NCBI GenBank assembly: GCA_023974075.1 | Contig: CM043792.1 | Location: 9,343,456-9,407,455, forward strand | Reading direction: 5' to 3' | Length of the DNA: 64,000 bases | Source of the DNA: Chaenocephalus aceratus | Taxonomy: Eukaryota > Chordata > Actinopteri > Perciformes > Channichthyidae | Part shown: piece after piece, positions 29,646 to 54,041 of the stretch | Layout of the letters: every line of letters begins with the position of its first letter | How positions within the stretch are numbered: the first letter of the stretch is position 1 | Made by a program: the position numbers and the translations under genes | The notes under the pieces: model-generated | Database searches by the model: none | What the model saw: only the letters and a program-made list of their open reading frames with translations | Told to the model about the DNA's origin: nothing

Positions 29646-30469
29646 TAGGGATGTCCGATCACCTTTTTTTGCTCCCGATCCGATTCCGATCATTTGATTT
29701 TGACAATCTGCCGATACCGATTTTTCCCGATCCGATCTTTATGCAATGCATTAAGAGAAAAAAAAGGTAACAGATAACGGCTGGTCATCCAACGCGATGA
29801 GTTCAGCTATCTTGGCTGTTATTGTTTGGCCTTTTCACTGTTCTGGGGCAGTTTCTCTTTCCTTTTAAAAGTCTCTGAAAGTGTCGGTTGTTTCAGTGCC
29901 GTTACCCGAGTGGCCGCTGTGTACTCGCCGTGTTGTTGTTGGTGTTTGTTTCTCAGGTAGCGTATTAGATTGGTCGTGTTGAACGTAGCTCTGTTCTTTC
30001 CACCACGCGGAACCTCTGCCTTGCAAACATTGCATCTGGCTGTTACACTGCCTTCGCTTTCAATTTTATAATACTTCCAAACTCCTGACATTTTCTCTGT
30101 CCCGACTCCCGAGTCACCAGCTGAACGTAGCCTCTCGTTAGCTTACTGCTACTATTAGACACTGCGCCGGGTGCGCCCTGCCCACTCTGTTGCCAGATTT
30201 CAGAGAAATAAGCAGGTCTATGAAAACAAGCCCAAAGAAAGCAACACATACATGATGTTGAGTAATTTTAAACCAAAACTAAGTCCTCAGGATGACTTTA
30301 AGACGTGAACATGGTCATTTTTGTTTTGTAACATTAAATAAAAAAAAAAAAAATTATAAAAAAAAAAAAAAATCCCGATCCCCGATTTTTTTCTCCTGAT
30401 CCCCGATTTTTTGAAAATCACGTGATCGGCTCCGATCCCCGATCACGTGATCGGATCGGGACATCTCTA
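29646..30469 (-). mobile_element. hAT element, TAGGGATGTCC type, perfect 8-bp TSD
   Basis: Left end TAGGGATGTCCGATCACC; right end on the minus strand TAGAGATGTCCCGATCC. CTGTTAAT flanks both sides exactly (29638-29645, 30470-30477). The second copy of element D holds the intact CTGTTAAT site at 34397-34404, so the insertion is proven by an empty site. It carries one BED exon; A-runs of 13 and 14 bases lie at 30339-30372. Confidence 0.95.
29819..30091 (-). pseudogene. BED-finger exon of hAT transposase, zinc ligand lost
   Basis: 90 residues starting MSGVWKYYKIESEGSVTARC. The CNVC pair (residues 20-23) and the FNTTNLIR block are typical of ZBED-like hAT transposases. The first ligand histidine, expected in LIRHL, is a tyrosine here (LIRYLRNKH), so the zinc site is incomplete. 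The frame ends soon after LSETFKRKEKLP, before the catalytic core. It is a damaged N-terminal remnant. Confidence 0.75.
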
Positions 30470-31339: not shown

Positions 31340-31639
31340 TGTAACATTCACAAAGGGAGTCGGAAACAGGCTTCTAGTTATTAGGCTTTAATAACTCTTC
31401 TTATTCGCAGATGATCACAGGTACATGTCACTTCGTGGGTTCTACCTCACACTGACCTAACTCCTACCCCTACACATATATATATAGCAGTGTCTACGTC
31501 ACAACTCCCCGCCCTCCCCCGTCCGCTCCCCCAACCACAGGCCCGCACCTCAACCAGCATCACTGTGCAGCTCTATGATTGGCAGAGAGACGGGGGATGC
31601 CTGAGTGACACCCTTAGCATCCTATACAGGGTCGCTACA
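31340..31639 (-). repeat. 3' LTR (complete, 300 bp)
   Basis: On the minus strand it runs from TGTAGCGACCCTGTATAGG to GTGAATGTTACA, with the TG...CA ends expected of an LTR. It contains a TATATATATATG run and, on the minus strand, ATTAAAGCC as a possible poly(A) signal. Confidence 0.9.
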
Positions 31640-31659
31640 CTACCCCCCCCACTACAAAG
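31640..31659 (-). other. polypurine tract
   Basis: Minus strand GTAGTGGGGGGGGTAG lies directly against the 3' LTR, where plus-strand DNA synthesis would be primed. Confidence 0.75.
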
Positions 31660-31844
31660 TTCCTCGCCCACGAGGAACAAATAAAACTCAGCACAAACAC
31701 TACCCCCACCCTCTCCAGTACTCTGCAGGGAGCAACCCACTGGCTGTCCAGTTTTGGGCACCGGCCTTTCTTCCGTTGTGGGCTGTAGACCCAGACCAGC
31801 TCCCCGGCCCGGAAATGCTGCCCTCTTGTCCTGGTGTCCTGGTG
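31643..31844 (-). pseudogene. integrase C-terminus (GPY/F-like tail)
   Basis: In a frame different from gag, the minus strand reads HFRAGELVWVYSPQRKKGRC, then PKLDSQWVAPCRVLERVG. This matches the end of Gypsy integrases, where W.GP..VLE forms the GPY/F module. The proline-cysteine here replaces the usual GP(Y/F) core. A stop lies just upstream of it, so it cannot be translated with gag. It shows that a full pol once stood here. Confidence 0.75.
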
Positions 31845-33480
31845 TCATAGTTCCGCTTCTGTCCACCTCGTCCAGTCTCAGCTCCATCTCCTTCAGTTCG
31901 CCTCCGAGTCTGAACCTCAGAGTCCAGGGTCTGCTCTGCCTCTATCGAGGCCTCTCTGTGTTGGGCGTTCTGCTCCAAGGTACTCCTCTCCGCTATAGCT
32001 ACGCTTGCCTGCTTCTGGGACTCATCCAGCTGAGATTTACAGGTATCCAACTCTGCTTCTGTCCTTTTCAGGTCTTCTAGAGTTTTCAAAGTCTCCAGTT
32101 GGGATTGTTCTAGCTTATTCTGGAGCTCGTTGTAACCTTGCTGCAGCGCCTTAGCGTCTCTACCCATCTCGCTGATCCTCTCCTGGTACTTGATGCAGTC
32201 CCTCTGCAGCTGCCGGACCTCCAGCTGCTTCTCCTTCAGCAGCTCCTCCAGCTGCCGCGCTCTGCTCTGGCTGCCTTCCCTGACCCTCTGAGCGGACCTC
32301 AGCTGCTGCTCCAGCTCCCTCTGCTTACCAGACTCTGCTTCTGCTCTCTCTCTCTGTGCTTGCCTCATGTCCTCCTCCAGCCTGGCGGCCCGGTCGCTCT
32401 CGCTCTGCGCCTCAGCCTCCAACTCGGCCCGCTCCCTCGCCAACCGCTCCACCTCCCGCTGCAGCTCGGCCAAGTGCTCCCGGTTGTCCGCCGCCTCCTG
32501 CTGGTAGTCTGCGATGCTGCCGTTGAGCTGGGCCAGCTGGTTCATCAGACGCTCCTCCAGGTTGTCCTTCTCGGCTTCCAGGCTCCTGAGCAGCTCTTTG
32601 AACTGCGCCTCCCTCTTGGCACCCTCCTCCACCAGGCTCCTTTCTCTCTCTGTGCCCTCTTGGAAGCACTTCTCCAGAGAGGCCACAAGGCTCTCCTTCT
32701 CTTTACTCTCCTGGAGATCTCGCTCAAGAGAGGCCAGCTCCGCTTTGAGTCTAGCCTCCTGTTGCTGCCACAGTTCCCTCTCTGCATTAACAGCTGCTTC
32801 CATCTCCCTCATTTTCTCCTCTAATAAAACTTGAACACTTTCAGTCATTTCGGTAACCCATACAGGCTTCTCCTCCTCTCTGCAGCTCCTCACAGCCGGT
32901 GGTACCGGCCCTCCGTTGCTCCTCGCCGCTACACTCCACACAATCTCTCTCTCCACAGCCATCTCCAAGGCCGCCTGCAAGGACTGTGGATGCTGCAGCT
33001 GTACCCCAACCCTCAAGTCCGCAGGGAGGAGAGCCCTGATGAATTGATCACGTGCCAGCTCACTCTGCACTCCGGTTGGCATGTGTGCATATGCCCTCCG
33101 CGTCAGGCTCTCCACGTCGTTAGCCAACGCACGCAGCGTCTTTCCAGACTTCCTACAGCGGTTACTCAATTCGTTCCGGAGCAGCTCTGGCGGGAAACAC
33201 TGTCCAAACCGCCTCTTCAAAGCCCCCGCTAACGCTTAGCTGTATCGGTCCTCAGGGCTAAGTAGTAGCAGACATGAAAGAGCCTCGTCTGTGAGGCACA
33301 AAGCTAGCTGTAGTGCTTTAGTCTCTATTGACCACCCCCCGGCATGTGCAAGCAGTTCAAATTGGGCATGGAAAGCCTCCCAGTCTGCCTTACCCGAGTA
33401 TTTGGGTGTTTTCACGGACCCGGCGGCTGCTGCTGGTTGATGGGCGCCGCCATTGTTGTTTACATCCCGCTTGGAAATGG
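31700..33480 (-). pseudogene. gag fused to about 300 residues of coiled coil
   Basis: The 506-codon ORF starts at 33220, but the same frame continues upstream through one TAA (33236-33238) to KTPKYSGKADWEAFHAQFEL and LLLLSPEDR, the gag start region of fish Gypsy elements. After the stop come RRFGQCFPPELLRNELSNRC and LARDQFIRALLPADLR, typical Gypsy gag. From about residue 131 to 432 (32830-31925) the protein is a charged heptad-rich coiled coil (for example LEEELL-like runs, QLEELLKEKQLEVRQLQRDC). No CCHC knuckle follows. Its source is unknown; it resembles large cytoskeletal or Golgi coiled-coil proteins in general. An upstream 87-codon ORF (33460-33723) in another frame may encode the native gag start. 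Confidence 0.8.
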
Positions 33481-33692
33481 CGCGGAAGACGGCGACATTC
33501 CCGCGTCTCTAGCCATCTTCACCGCCGACTCTCTCAGGCGCTCTCTCGCCTCCCGTGCACTCATGAACTCTCTCCTCATGTCCTTCGACCACCCGCATGC
33601 TCCATCTTCCTCATCATCACTATTTTCCTGCTTCACTCCCATCTTGCTGAACTTTTCCATCTCCGCTAGCTTCCCGGCTAGCTCCGTGACGC

Positions 33693-33711
33693 AGTTAACT
33701 TCTGACACCAA
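33693..33711 (-). other. primer-binding site
   Basis: Directly after the 5' LTR, the minus strand reads TTGGTGTCAGAAGTTAAC: TGG plus sequence complementary to a tRNA 3' end (ACTTCTGACACCA). Which tRNA was not determined. Confidence 0.8.
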
Positions 33712-33988
33712 TGTAACATTCACAAAGGGAGTCGGAAACAGGCTTCTAGTTATTAGGCTTTAATAACTCTTCTTATTCGCAGATGATCACAGGTACATGT
33801 CACTTCGTGGGTTCTACCTCACACTGACCTAACTCCTACCCCTACACATATATATATAGCAGTGTCTACGTCACAACTCCCCGCCCTCCCCCGTCCGCTC
33901 CCCCAACCACAGGCCCGCACCTCAACCAGCATCACTGTGCAGCTCTATGATTGGCAGAGAGACGGGGGATGCCTGAGTGACACCCTTA
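33712..33988 (-). repeat. 5' LTR, missing outer 23 bp
   Basis: Identical to the 3' LTR over 277 bp; the TGTAGCGACC outer end is absent and sequence of another element (CGGCCCGTCCACAC) begins instead. Confidence 0.9.
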
Positions 33989-34275
33989 CGGCCCGTCCAC
34001 ACAGCGGCGTGCGTTGACGCTTCACCATTCACTTTGAATGGGGGTGACGTCACTTTTAGCCGAAATGCATCGTGGGAAGCGACGTGGAGCGTAGCTGGCG
34101 TGGCTCGCTGCAAAAGTTGAGCAATGTTCAACTTTTGACGCCTCGGCGAGGCGTCAGCCAATCGAATCATATGCCAGTACAAGCTCTCGCCAATCAAACC
34201 GCTGCTTGTGTGTCAGGGGCGGGAGATTCATGTGATTGGTTGTTGGTCGAGTTTCAGACACGCCCGCCGGCACTC
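33989..34275. repeat. structured MITE fragment (GGCCCGTCCACAC)
   Basis: Begins CGGCCCGTCCACACAGCGG and has two hairpins: AAAAGTTGA..TCAACTTTT (34112-34136) and GACGCCTC..GAGGCGTC (34137-34155). It ends at about ACACGCCCGCCGG where element D resumes. The inverted partner of its left end is not seen, so it is partial; it may have removed the LTR tip. Confidence 0.55.
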
Positions 34276-36501: not shown

Positions 36502-36689
<188 letters not shown>

Positions 36690-43380: not shown

Positions 43381-43522
43381 ATTTAACTGAAAATACTAGG
43401 GAAATGATTACTCAGAATTTTTCTTCCACACTTGCTAATATCTCAGTAAATGAGCTAGTAGATCATTTTAATTCAAAAATAAAAATGTTATAGATGCAAT
43501 TGCTCTAACTAAGGTAAAGGAA

Positions 43523-44995
43523 GTGATTGGCAAGAAAATATCTCCATGGAGAAAGGCCATGACCGTGAGAACAGAAAAAAGAGAGTGTCGAAAAGCTGAA
43601 CGTAGGTGGCGAAAAACAAATCTCCAGGTTCACTTTGAAATCTATAAAGAGAGACTTGGCCTTTATAATTTTGAATTGAAAAACGCACGACAGTCTTTCT
43701 TCTCTGACATCATTACCAAAAACAAAAACAACGCACGTAACTTGTTTGCTACCGTCGACAGACTAACTAACCCCCCAGTGTCAGTAGCCTCTGAATTTAT
43801 ATCCACCAGGGCCTGCAATGCATTTGCCTCCTTCTGCACTGACAACATTCAGAAAATTAGACAAGCAGTCTCTGTATCAGGTACAGCAAATGTTTTGTCT
43901 CTGTGTCCACTTAAAATTAATTCAAATACCATGACACAATTCCATCAGATTAATGATAAAAACCTAGAGGACATTATTCAACTTCTGAAATCCTCCTCCT
44001 GCTGCCTTGATATTATTCCAACAGGATTTTTCAAAGATGTTTTTCGTTGCATGGCCTCAGATCTACTTCATATAGTAAACAAATCTCTTCACTCAGGTCT
44101 TTTCTCACAGGCCCTGAAAACTGCAGTCATTAAACCGCTCTTAAAAAAGAATAATCTAGATGCTTCAGTAATGAACAATTACAGGCCCATATCAAACCTG
44201 TCATTTCTATGTAAAATCATTGAAAAAGTTGTTTTTCAACAGTTGAGTAACTTCTTACATTTACATAACTGTTTCGATGTGTTCCAGTCAGGCTTTTGTC
44301 CAAACCACAGCAATGAGACTGCTCTTGTAAAGGTCTTTAATGACATCCACTTAAACACAGACAGTGGCAGAACTTCAGTGTTAGTATTATTAGATCTCAG
44401 TGCTGCGTTTGACACTGTTGACCACAGCATATTACTAGACCGACTGGAAAACTGGGTGGGACTTTCGGAAACAGTTCTAAATTGGTTTGAATCCTACCTA
44501 AAGGACAGAAAAAACGTTGTTTCTATAGGTAAATACACATCTGAGTTGACAAATATGACATGTGGGGTTCTTCAAGGCTCCATCTTGGGGCCTCTTCTCT
44601 TTAACATCTACATGCTACCACTGGCTCAGATAATGAAAAACAACAAAATAAGTTACCATAGCTATGCAGATGACACACAAATGTACGTAACAATTTCACC
44701 AGGAGACTATGCTCCAATTCAAACACTGAGTAAGTGCATTGAACAAATCAATGACTGGATGTGTCAGAACTTTCTCCAACAAAGATAAAACTGAGGTAAT
44801 GGTTTTTGGAGCCAAGTCAGAACGTATAAAAGTTAGCGCTGAGCTTCAGTCTGCAATGTTCAAAACAACAGATAAAGCCAGAAATCTAGGTGTAGTCATG
44901 GACTCTGACCTGAGTTTCAACAGTCACATTAAAACAGTTACTAAATCAGCCTACTATCACCTAAAGAATATATCTAGGATTAAAAGACTAATGTC
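43523..44995 (+). pseudogene. LINE reverse transcriptase
   Basis: 421 codons to 44788 with [53 protein letters not shown] (catalytic Asp), [13 protein letters not shown] and SYADDTQMY (the catalytic YADD). A frameshift near 44775 moves the reading to [16 protein letters not shown] and NLGVVMDSDLSFNSHIKTVT. The fingers-palm motifs are all present but the protein is split and has no end. L2 placement is by motif style. Confidence 0.85.
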
Positions 44996-52518: not shown

Positions 52519-52544
52519 ACTGTTAGACAATTAGTCTTGGCACT

Positions 52545-54041
52545 ATCGACCTTGGCACTATCCTCCGTCATCATAATGTTCATTTCCACTGTTACGCCGA
52601 TGATACCCAGGTCTACATTTCCAGCAAACCCAACATTGCCGTCCCCCCAACCTCTCTCACCAACTGCCTCCAGGACATCAGGAGCTGGATGAGCAGGAAC
52701 TTCCTAAAACTCAACGGCAGCAAAACCGAAGCCCTGCTGGTTGGCACCAAAACCACCCTCTCCAAAACCTCATCCTCCCCTGCCTCCAACCTCATCATTG
52801 ATGGCTACTCCATCCCCTTCTCTGGCCTAGTTATGAGCCTTGGTGTCATCCTGGACAGCTTCCTCTCATTTTCACCTCACATAAATAACATCACCCGGAC
52901 TGCCTTCTTCCACATACGCAACATCTTCAGACTCCGCCCATCCCTTTCTCAATCAAACACTGAAGTCCTGGTCAATGCATTTGTCACGTCCCGCATCGAC
53001 TACTGTAACTCCATCCTCAGGCTTACCCACCAAGCTCATCAATAAACTACAAATCATACAGAACTCTGCAGCCCGGATCATCACCGGCACCAAGGCCTCA
53101 GAACTAGGGATGTGCATCTCCCTCACTGAGGCTCGATACGTTGCCACAATACAATACATTAACGATACATTTGAAACACCAGGCGATGCGATTAAAAAAA
53201 AATCCGAAGTGTTGCCAAACGTTTGATTTGTAGGTATTTTTCGGTGCGCTGTGTTTCTCTTTCTCCTCGACTTCCATGTGTGTTGATAACTGAGACTCTT
53301 GGCCTCCGTAGTGCGAAGCAAAGATCAAAGATCGTCTCTGCGGAGTGCTGACAGGATGAGGAGATATTATATGAATGAATCGTTTTTTTACCGATGCAAA
53401 GACGCTACAATCGATGCATCGCGAGTTCAACCCAAACTGTAGCCAATGTGCACTCTTTCAACCGGTGCACTCGCATCTTGAACGTTTATGCCGGTGCACC
53501 GATGTGAATCGGTGAATCTTAACATCCCTACTCAGAACACATCACCCCCATCCTCATCCAACTCCACTGGCTCCCCATTTCAATCCCGTATCAACTTCAA
53601 AAACCTACTGCTCACTTACAAAGCCCTACCTAACCTGCCCCCCTATCTGGCTGACCTTCTTCAGGAGTACACCCCCTCTCGCTCCCTCCTTAGCTGATCC
53701 GCTAACCGTCCCCACCCCACGCCTCGTCACCATGGGTGCTCGGGCTTTTAGCTGCACTGCTCCCAGACTCTGGAACTCCCTCCCCCCGCACATCCGACAG
53801 TCAGACACAATCACCATATTCAAATCCCAATTCAAAACCCACCTGTTCAAATCTGCTTACTCACTGTAGTGCTCCCCATTATGTTTCATTTGTGACCACT
53901 TGACTGTCTCCTCCATGATTTCCTGTTTGTGTTTTTATCATGTTTTGTTGCCTATTAGCGTTTTCTTTCTTTTTTAACAAATTGTACGGTGTCCTTGGGT
54001 GTCATGAAAGGCGCCTGAAAATAAAATGTATTATTATTAGT
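52545..54041 (+). mobile_element. LINE 3' half (L2/Rex-like), interrupted by a hAT
   Basis: Plus strand: YADDTQVYISSKP (catalytic YADD), MSRNFLKLNGSKTEALLVGT, GVILDSFLSFSPHINNITR, SRIDYCNSIL, then after the hAT the C-terminus HITPILIQLHWLPI, FKNLLLTYKALPNLPPYLAD, LWNSLPPHIRQSDTITIFKS and FKTHLFKSAYSL before a stop at 53866. The 3' UTR ends GGTGTCATGAAAGGCGCC and ATTATTATT. 5' truncated; several frame breaks. It differs from the LINEs at 1, 13909 and 42478. Confidence 0.85.
53105..53530. mobile_element. hAT MITE, TAGGGATGTGCAT type, perfect 8-bp TSD
   Basis: Left end TAGGGATGTGCATCTCC, right end on the minus strand TAGGGATGTTAAGATTCACC. CTCAGAAC is duplicated exactly (53097-53104, 53531-53538). 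Its removal rejoins the LINE reading. No coding capacity. Confidence 0.92.

Follow-up and report, generated by a model that had tools for sequence, protein, structure and literature searches.

Acute transforming retroviruses carry a gag gene fused to host sequence, have lost pol and need a helper. The element described here has a similar layout, but it belongs to a germline retrotransposon family, and neither env nor any sign of infection or function was seen. The capture of host genes by LTR elements is established, as passages of three reviews set out (PMC6431247, PMC13317346, PMC5408686). In LTR-mediated retroposition, as outlined in part of PMC5408686, template switching with cellular mRNA at microsimilarities inserts coding sequence of the host between LTRs; only a portion of the parent gene is copied, and further retrotransposition is possible. 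Our element shares these features, but here the piece is joined in frame to gag, takes the place of the zinc knuckle and almost all of pol, and forms a multi-copy family; the mRNA template is presumed. Crocodilian endogenous retroviruses with nectin3 and KIT ligand, in the sections of PMC4299795 that treat them, likewise join a vertebrate LTR element to a host gene, and the nectin3 element is present in several copies from a capture that predates a speciation. These are retroviral cases in which nectin3 replaced env and KIT ligand cost the virus no domain, and purifying selection is reported for the KIT ligand open reading frames (PMC4299795), whereas the present case is a Gypsy element without pol whose captured part looks near-neutral. 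Maize Bs1, as summarized in PMC13317346, is also an LTR element with host gene fragments; it is a plant element with three fragments, whereas a single fragment is present in this fish Gypsy element, and its joints and mosaics are resolved.

Here, we describe a Ty3/Gypsy-type element in a window of 64,000 nucleotides, the whole stretch of Chaenocephalus aceratus DNA that was analysed. We hold it likely, with a probability of roughly 0.84, that this non-autonomous element was born in a notothenioid, most likely once, by reverse-transcription jumps onto giantin and back. Reverse transcription of a canonical gag-pol element would have jumped onto giantin (golgb1) sequence, presumably an mRNA, at a short match in integrase, and would have jumped back at a short match in gag. 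The product would thereby have kept the LTRs, the primer site, most of gag (including the capsid), the integrase end and the polypurine tract; as a comparison with relatives indicates, the zinc knuckle, protease, reverse transcriptase, RNase H and most of integrase would have been exchanged for 336 giantin codons in frame with gag. The Ty3/Gypsy background, the loss of the zinc knuckle to the gag fusion and the mosaics formed with canonical elements set this case apart from known LTR gene captures. Among the matches listed from open-licence full texts, a scope outside which most subscription papers lie, we found no report of giantin capture; golgins are not mentioned in PMC10256766, nor golgins or giantin in PMC5941688. 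This is a vertebrate Ty3/Gypsy host-gene capture in which the donor, both joints, canonical relatives, two mosaics and several notothenioids can all be read.

The element occupies positions 31340 to 33988 on the minus strand of the window, with a legible structure and defective coding parts. It possesses the hallmarks of Ty3/Gypsy elements: direct LTRs, a primer-like site after the 5' LTR, which we take to be of the tRNA-Leu type, and a polypurine tract before the 3' LTR. The original prediction had proposed the order LTR, primer site, gag, coiled coil, integrase end, polypurine tract and LTR, and both this order and its coordinates were confirmed, as follows.

33712-33988, minus strand: 5' LTR, lacking its first 23 bp; 277 of 277 positions identical to the 3' LTR
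33661-33711, minus strand: primer-binding-site-like start and leader, directly after the 5' LTR
33463-33660, minus strand: first part of gag; 87-92% to the gag of fusion proteins P0004, P0005 and P0007
33239-33508, minus strand: middle part of gag in a different frame; homology from about 33484; stop at 33236-33238
33252-33329, minus strand: interval of the switch from canonical-type to captured-type gag; diagnostic sites canonical-type at 6 of 6, then captured-type at 20 of 20 (shuffle p 4e-5)
32852-33235, minus strand: capsid C-terminal part of gag, in the same frame as the giantin segment
32839-32848, minus strand: 5' capture joint, a stretch common to canonical gag and giantin
31858-32851, minus strand: segment captured from giantin (golgb1), spanning 336 donor codons; DNA 96.3% identical to that of the native gene
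31858-31863, minus strand: 3' capture joint, GACAGA (6 nt), common to giantin and the canonical integrase end L061
31698-31857, minus strand: C-terminal remnant of integrase, out of the giantin frame; 94.9% DNA identity to canonical L061 over 136 nt
31640-31652, minus strand: G-rich polypurine tract, directly before the 3' LTR
31340-31639, minus strand: 3' LTR, complete, 300 bp, beginning directly after the polypurine tract

Two further claims held in part. The LTRs had been called identical over 277 bp, which they are, but that figure reflects the truncated 5' copy rather than the full LTR length. An open reading frame fusing gag to a coiled coil had also been described. The fusion is indeed in frame, and approximately 300 residues of coiled coil continue open from the last gag part; the frame does not hold the whole of gag, since gag is split over two frames and interrupted by the stop, and the 506-codon open reading frame comprises the last part of gag and the coiled coil only. 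Over 128 residues this last part matches five fusion proteins at 95-97% and the canonical gag P0010 at 88%. The frame of the integrase remnant spans 31638-31844 and matches the end of the P0046 integrase at 64% identity across 45 residues. The element has no reverse transcriptase of its own, and since only the integrase end is left of pol, it is, as its sequence reads, a non-autonomous derivative of a Ty3/Gypsy LTR retrotransposon. Pfam matches of the window open reading frames to capsid and integrase SH3 domains were all below threshold, a PDB sequence search with the window open reading frame returned no match, and a tRNA scan of the window and Rfam at the gathering threshold found nothing. 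Compared with most of the other five copies shown, the leader is short by about 40 bp, that of L018 being somewhat short as well. Much of the host sequence recurs, free of the element, in a paralogous repeat at 29.3-29.6 kb. The shortened 5' LTR is adjoined by a 277-bp block at 33989-34265, MITE-like by eye, that takes the place of part of the target repeat; the window copy therefore offers no legible target duplication. Direct repeats of 4 bp flank two (L016 and L019) of six copies, a set to which the window copy belongs; the window copy is shortened on its 5' side and the other ends are inexact.

The coiled coil had been attributed to a captured host gene, and this gene is golgb1, encoding giantin: the captured segment has 94% protein identity to icefish giantin, and the segment of the family corresponds to residues 1704-2039 of the 2,877-residue giantin of Champsocephalus esox. 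Against icefish giantin the window coiled coil scores 547 bits; none of 200 shuffles preserving the heptad register exceeds 73.9 bits, and a second match of the coil to giantin, out of place, reaches 68.2 bits. When proteins were searched with the coiled coil, scoring was confined to the 7,999 candidates with the most shared words and returned nine matches, seven of them gag-giantin fusions (three from Gymnodraco acuticeps and one each from Pseudochaenichthys georgianus, C. esox, C. gunnari and Notothenia coriiceps) and two fragments of genuine giantin. With long proteins admitted, the search gave 812 matches; among the best 120 of these, icefish giantin ranks first at 94% and golgb1 accounts for most named entries. 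The segment therefore matches more than gag proteins, a point the original prediction had singled out for checking, and its native counterpart lies elsewhere in the same genome (1.064 Gb in 3,032 contigs searched), at C23, in a single open frame of 1,707 codons. Among the giantin entries of the best 120 of 812 matches are 26 open reading frames of 1,590-1,880 residues, of which 24 end at the same residue and 19 start within the same five residues. The open frame thus reads as one giant exon, with the capture probably lying wholly within it, so that the loss of an intron is not available as proof of an mRNA template. Public annotation gives transposon copies the names golgin B1-like, golgin A3-like, trichohyalin-like and myosin-like (P0001-P0004), and notothenioid gene models with golgin-, trichohyalin- or myosin-like names can accordingly be transposon copies.

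Canonical relatives lack the coil. In nine of nine canonical gag copies from the same genome, canonical sequence continues past the joint with no coil (41 bases shown), which answers whether relatives carry it between gag and pol, and it was also absent from the nine relatives inspected by eye. Just before the joint these gags have 91-94% DNA identity, and several match zinc-knuckle gag through the knuckle without a stop. The canonical gag P0010 of G. acuticeps has its zinc knuckle at 280-297, whereas the fusion P0003 has none. The related polyprotein P0046 contains the Gypsy-type domains RVT_1, RNase H, integrase H2C2 and zinc knuckle, and one gag match in the C. aceratus genome falls within a 1,603-codon open frame. 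At C3, a canonical element has LTRs 95% identical to the window LTR, and two more LTRs, at C584 and C1914, are 97% identical to it. Structure prediction for P0003 gave good confidence over the capsid region, with an overall mean pLDDT of 71. Compared with the PDB, this model gave 91 matches up to E 10, of which one, PNMA2 (E 8e-4), fell under 0.001; Arc came next and the Ty3 capsid was weaker (E 0.042). The gag of P0003 thus has a predicted Arc/PNMA2/Ty3-like capsid fold, and its Pfam Ty3_capsid match is below the cut-off.

At the 5' joint, canonical gag reads ...gggttaccGAGATGAC(G/T)GAA... and giantin reads ...aaaaagcaGAAATGACTGAAAGTG...; captured copies follow gag until the shared stretch and giantin beyond it. 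The joint comparison took in 12 of the 14 places found in the genome, L014 and L022 having no joint, and the 5' joint has the same position in all 12. The match between giantin and canonical gag is unbroken in two of nine canonical copies, over 10 nt in L026 and 9 nt in L048; in the other seven, a single mismatch inside the stretch limits uninterrupted identity to 5 nt. At the 3' joint, GACAGA occurs both in giantin (...GAGGTGGACAGA) and in L061 (...GTGAGACAGAAGCGG), the single canonical integrase end used for comparison. Of 12 copies given, 11 yielded a result and nine have this same joint; the remaining two, L023 and L024, are duplicates of each other and have a different sequence after giantin position 987. 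An unbroken match of 10 nt or 6 nt at given joints has a chance of about 1e-5 or 0.002, respectively, the first figure being valid for L026 only. At the protein level, three of four shared residues at the joint occur in 0.16% of random pairs. Because the 5' joint is common to 12 of 12 copies and the 3' joint to 9 of 11, a single capture event is most likely, and the short shared stretches at both joints fit template switching.

Three other accounts of the fusion may be considered. Some retroelement gags carry coiled coils, and the coil might thus be an old part of the gag of this Gypsy lineage. This is refuted by the 96% DNA identity of the segment to the native giantin gene and by the other sequence with which all nine canonical gags continue past the joint, where P0010 has its zinc knuckle; we give this account next to no weight. 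An artefact of assembly or annotation might be suspected, given that some relatives are automatic gene models, but it is equally far-fetched and likewise refuted, as 12 copies of the assembly have the same 5' joint and the same fusion is predicted in five named species. Alternatively, the fusion might have arisen by DNA recombination, through microhomology-mediated repair between an inserted Gypsy copy and golgb1, and have spread later by retrotransposition. The joint matches are short, as this would require, and intron loss cannot discriminate since the segment lies in a single open frame. DNA recombination would, however, have to place two joints in one element while sparing the LTR, the primer site and the polypurine tract, for which two template switches are simpler, and we judge it unlikely. 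This DNA-level route and the 5' mismatch in seven of nine canonical copies lower our confidence in jumps during reverse transcription, which we nevertheless prefer.

The segment is present at at least 14 places in the genome, the window and 13 others, two of which are the duplicates L023 and L024. Together with the seven predicted proteins in five named notothenioid species, this supports the earlier suggestion of a non-autonomous family. L022 is a giantin fragment only, and L014 has lost most of gag. Four copies (L012, L015, L019 and L020) retain roughly 275-305 bp extra near the integrase end; because this stretch is canonical-like in L012, the one copy tested, the longer form probably came first. 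Clear LTR pairs differ at 0 of 277 positions in the window copy and 4 of 292 in L017, and by 6 mismatches plus indels over 292 columns in L016 and 8 mismatches plus indels over 302 columns in L019. Dating left out L013 (3 mismatches in 277), L014 (3 in 114) and L018 (3 plus indels in 290), in which extra LTR pieces or truncation blur the pairing. These values suggest that the insertions differ in age and that the window copy is the youngest of those with clear LTR pairs. The upper 95% bound on its LTR divergence is 1.1%, and gene conversion between LTRs may also account for such similarity. The identical LTRs suggest that the family may be active.

The gag of the window copy is a mosaic. We scored 26 sites, chosen so that three canonical copies have one base and at least five of seven captured copies have a different one in common. 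In the window copy the six leading sites are all canonical-type and the 20 that follow are all captured-type (shuffle p 4e-5). Among seven captured control copies, three have no canonical-type site and four have two to four, some of them among the first six of the window. Over 189 nt, the leader and the beginning of gag in the window copy match canonical copy L046 at 100%, and the LTR of L046 is 95% identical to that of the window copy. A second mosaic is the G. acuticeps fusion P0003, which begins with a P0010-type gag start, 15-residue gap included: the first 16 of 36 informative positions are P0010-type, followed by 17 of 20 captured-type (p 1e-5). This test covered P0003, which has a near-twin, P0002. 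Template switching between co-packaged RNAs is the simplest cause of these mosaics, which gene conversion could mimic, and the window mosaic suggests co-packaging with a helper RNA. Most likely, therefore, the captured element would be transcribed from its LTR, its RNA packaged into particles of canonical relatives and then reverse transcribed and integrated in trans by canonical enzymes, with no need for the Gag-giantin product. Multiplication was thus probably aided by intact relatives. The two mosaics represent fossil evidence for steps that are usually only modelled, namely template switching and co-packaging.

In a tree of 27 segments, the captured copies group with icefish giantin and the giantin P0060, apart from Eleginops, with support of 99/95. 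A grouping of the Eleginops, two icefish and P0060 giantins without the captured copies was rejected (AU p 0.0066, the group having been named after the tree was seen), indicating that the capture would postdate the split from Eleginops. A capture after the split of the P0060 giantin (AU p 0.057) is favoured but not established. Monophyly of the captured copies has no support in the protein tree (72/0), and the single origin rests on the shared joints rather than on that tree. The same fusion is predicted in Notothenia coriiceps, which we take to belong to the Nototheniidae, in Gymnodraco, presumably of the Bathydraconidae, and in icefishes. Barring horizontal transfer, the capture would thus be older than their split. 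In the part of PMC10256766 concerned, the onset of the radiation is put at 10.7 million years ago, and the capture would fall early in the notothenioid radiation, again barring horizontal transfer.

Relative to native giantin, the 14 copies carry 134 nonsynonymous and 51 synonymous changes, near-fixed changes (6:7) aside. Without the duplicate L024, changes shared by two or more copies and not near-fixed number 25 nonsynonymous to 8 synonymous, and single changes 109 to 43. The ratio in the captured part is compatible with a neutral ratio of 2.41, weighted for transitions and CpG, and lies slightly below a flat neutral ratio of 3.67 (p 0.03-0.09, according to which copies are excluded). Constraint is stronger in canonical gag (40:29), though the contrast is weak, with p 0.034 against giantin and 0.23 and 0.096 against captured gag. 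The near-neutral substitutions in the captured part point to a protein that is probably a passenger.

A functional Gag-giantin protein, in which the coiled coil replaces the zinc-knuckle domain as the multimerizing part and helps assembly or interferes with canonical particles, seems distinctly improbable to us. It is conceivable in that HIV-1 Gag whose NC is replaced by a leucine zipper multimerizes efficiently, as part of PMC2965768 describes; a second precedent, from part of PMC4599808, is the truncated Ty1 Gag p22, which inhibits Ty1. The predicted capsid fold of the relative P0003 is in its favour, as are the 600-614-residue fusion proteins predicted in G. acuticeps, although these are gene models, and the slightly low ratio against 3.67 would allow weak constraint. 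Against it, the shared changes in the giantin part (25:8) lie near the neutral ratio, and the window copy, despite its identical LTRs, has a gag interrupted by a shift of frame and a stop codon. Were Gag-giantin to join or disturb canonical particles, the element would be a parasite or restrictor of its helper, not a mere passenger.

Gag matches in the genome total 114, a figure that takes in the captured copies. Of the canonical gag copies, about 37 (e.g. L027-L044) have near-equal scores, 420-codon frames and 79-80% to P0010, which points to a recent burst of a related element. Scans of viral contigs with giantin, fusion and gag queries found no relatives. Gene models from Mugilogobius chulae (P0022) and G. 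acuticeps (P0055 and P0056) combine a gag-like stretch with receptor kinase or mucin-like domains and represent either fusion genes or annotation errors. Elsewhere in the window, an open frame at 29822-30091 on the minus strand, in the repeat cluster adjoining the element, resembles by eye the BED zinc finger of a hAT transposase. RVT_1 (Pfam) fragments at 43472-44785 (E 2e-27) and 52527-53042 (E 1e-7), both on the plus strand, are probably LINEs, and a perfect AC dinucleotide repeat of 92.5 units extends from 36503 to 36687.
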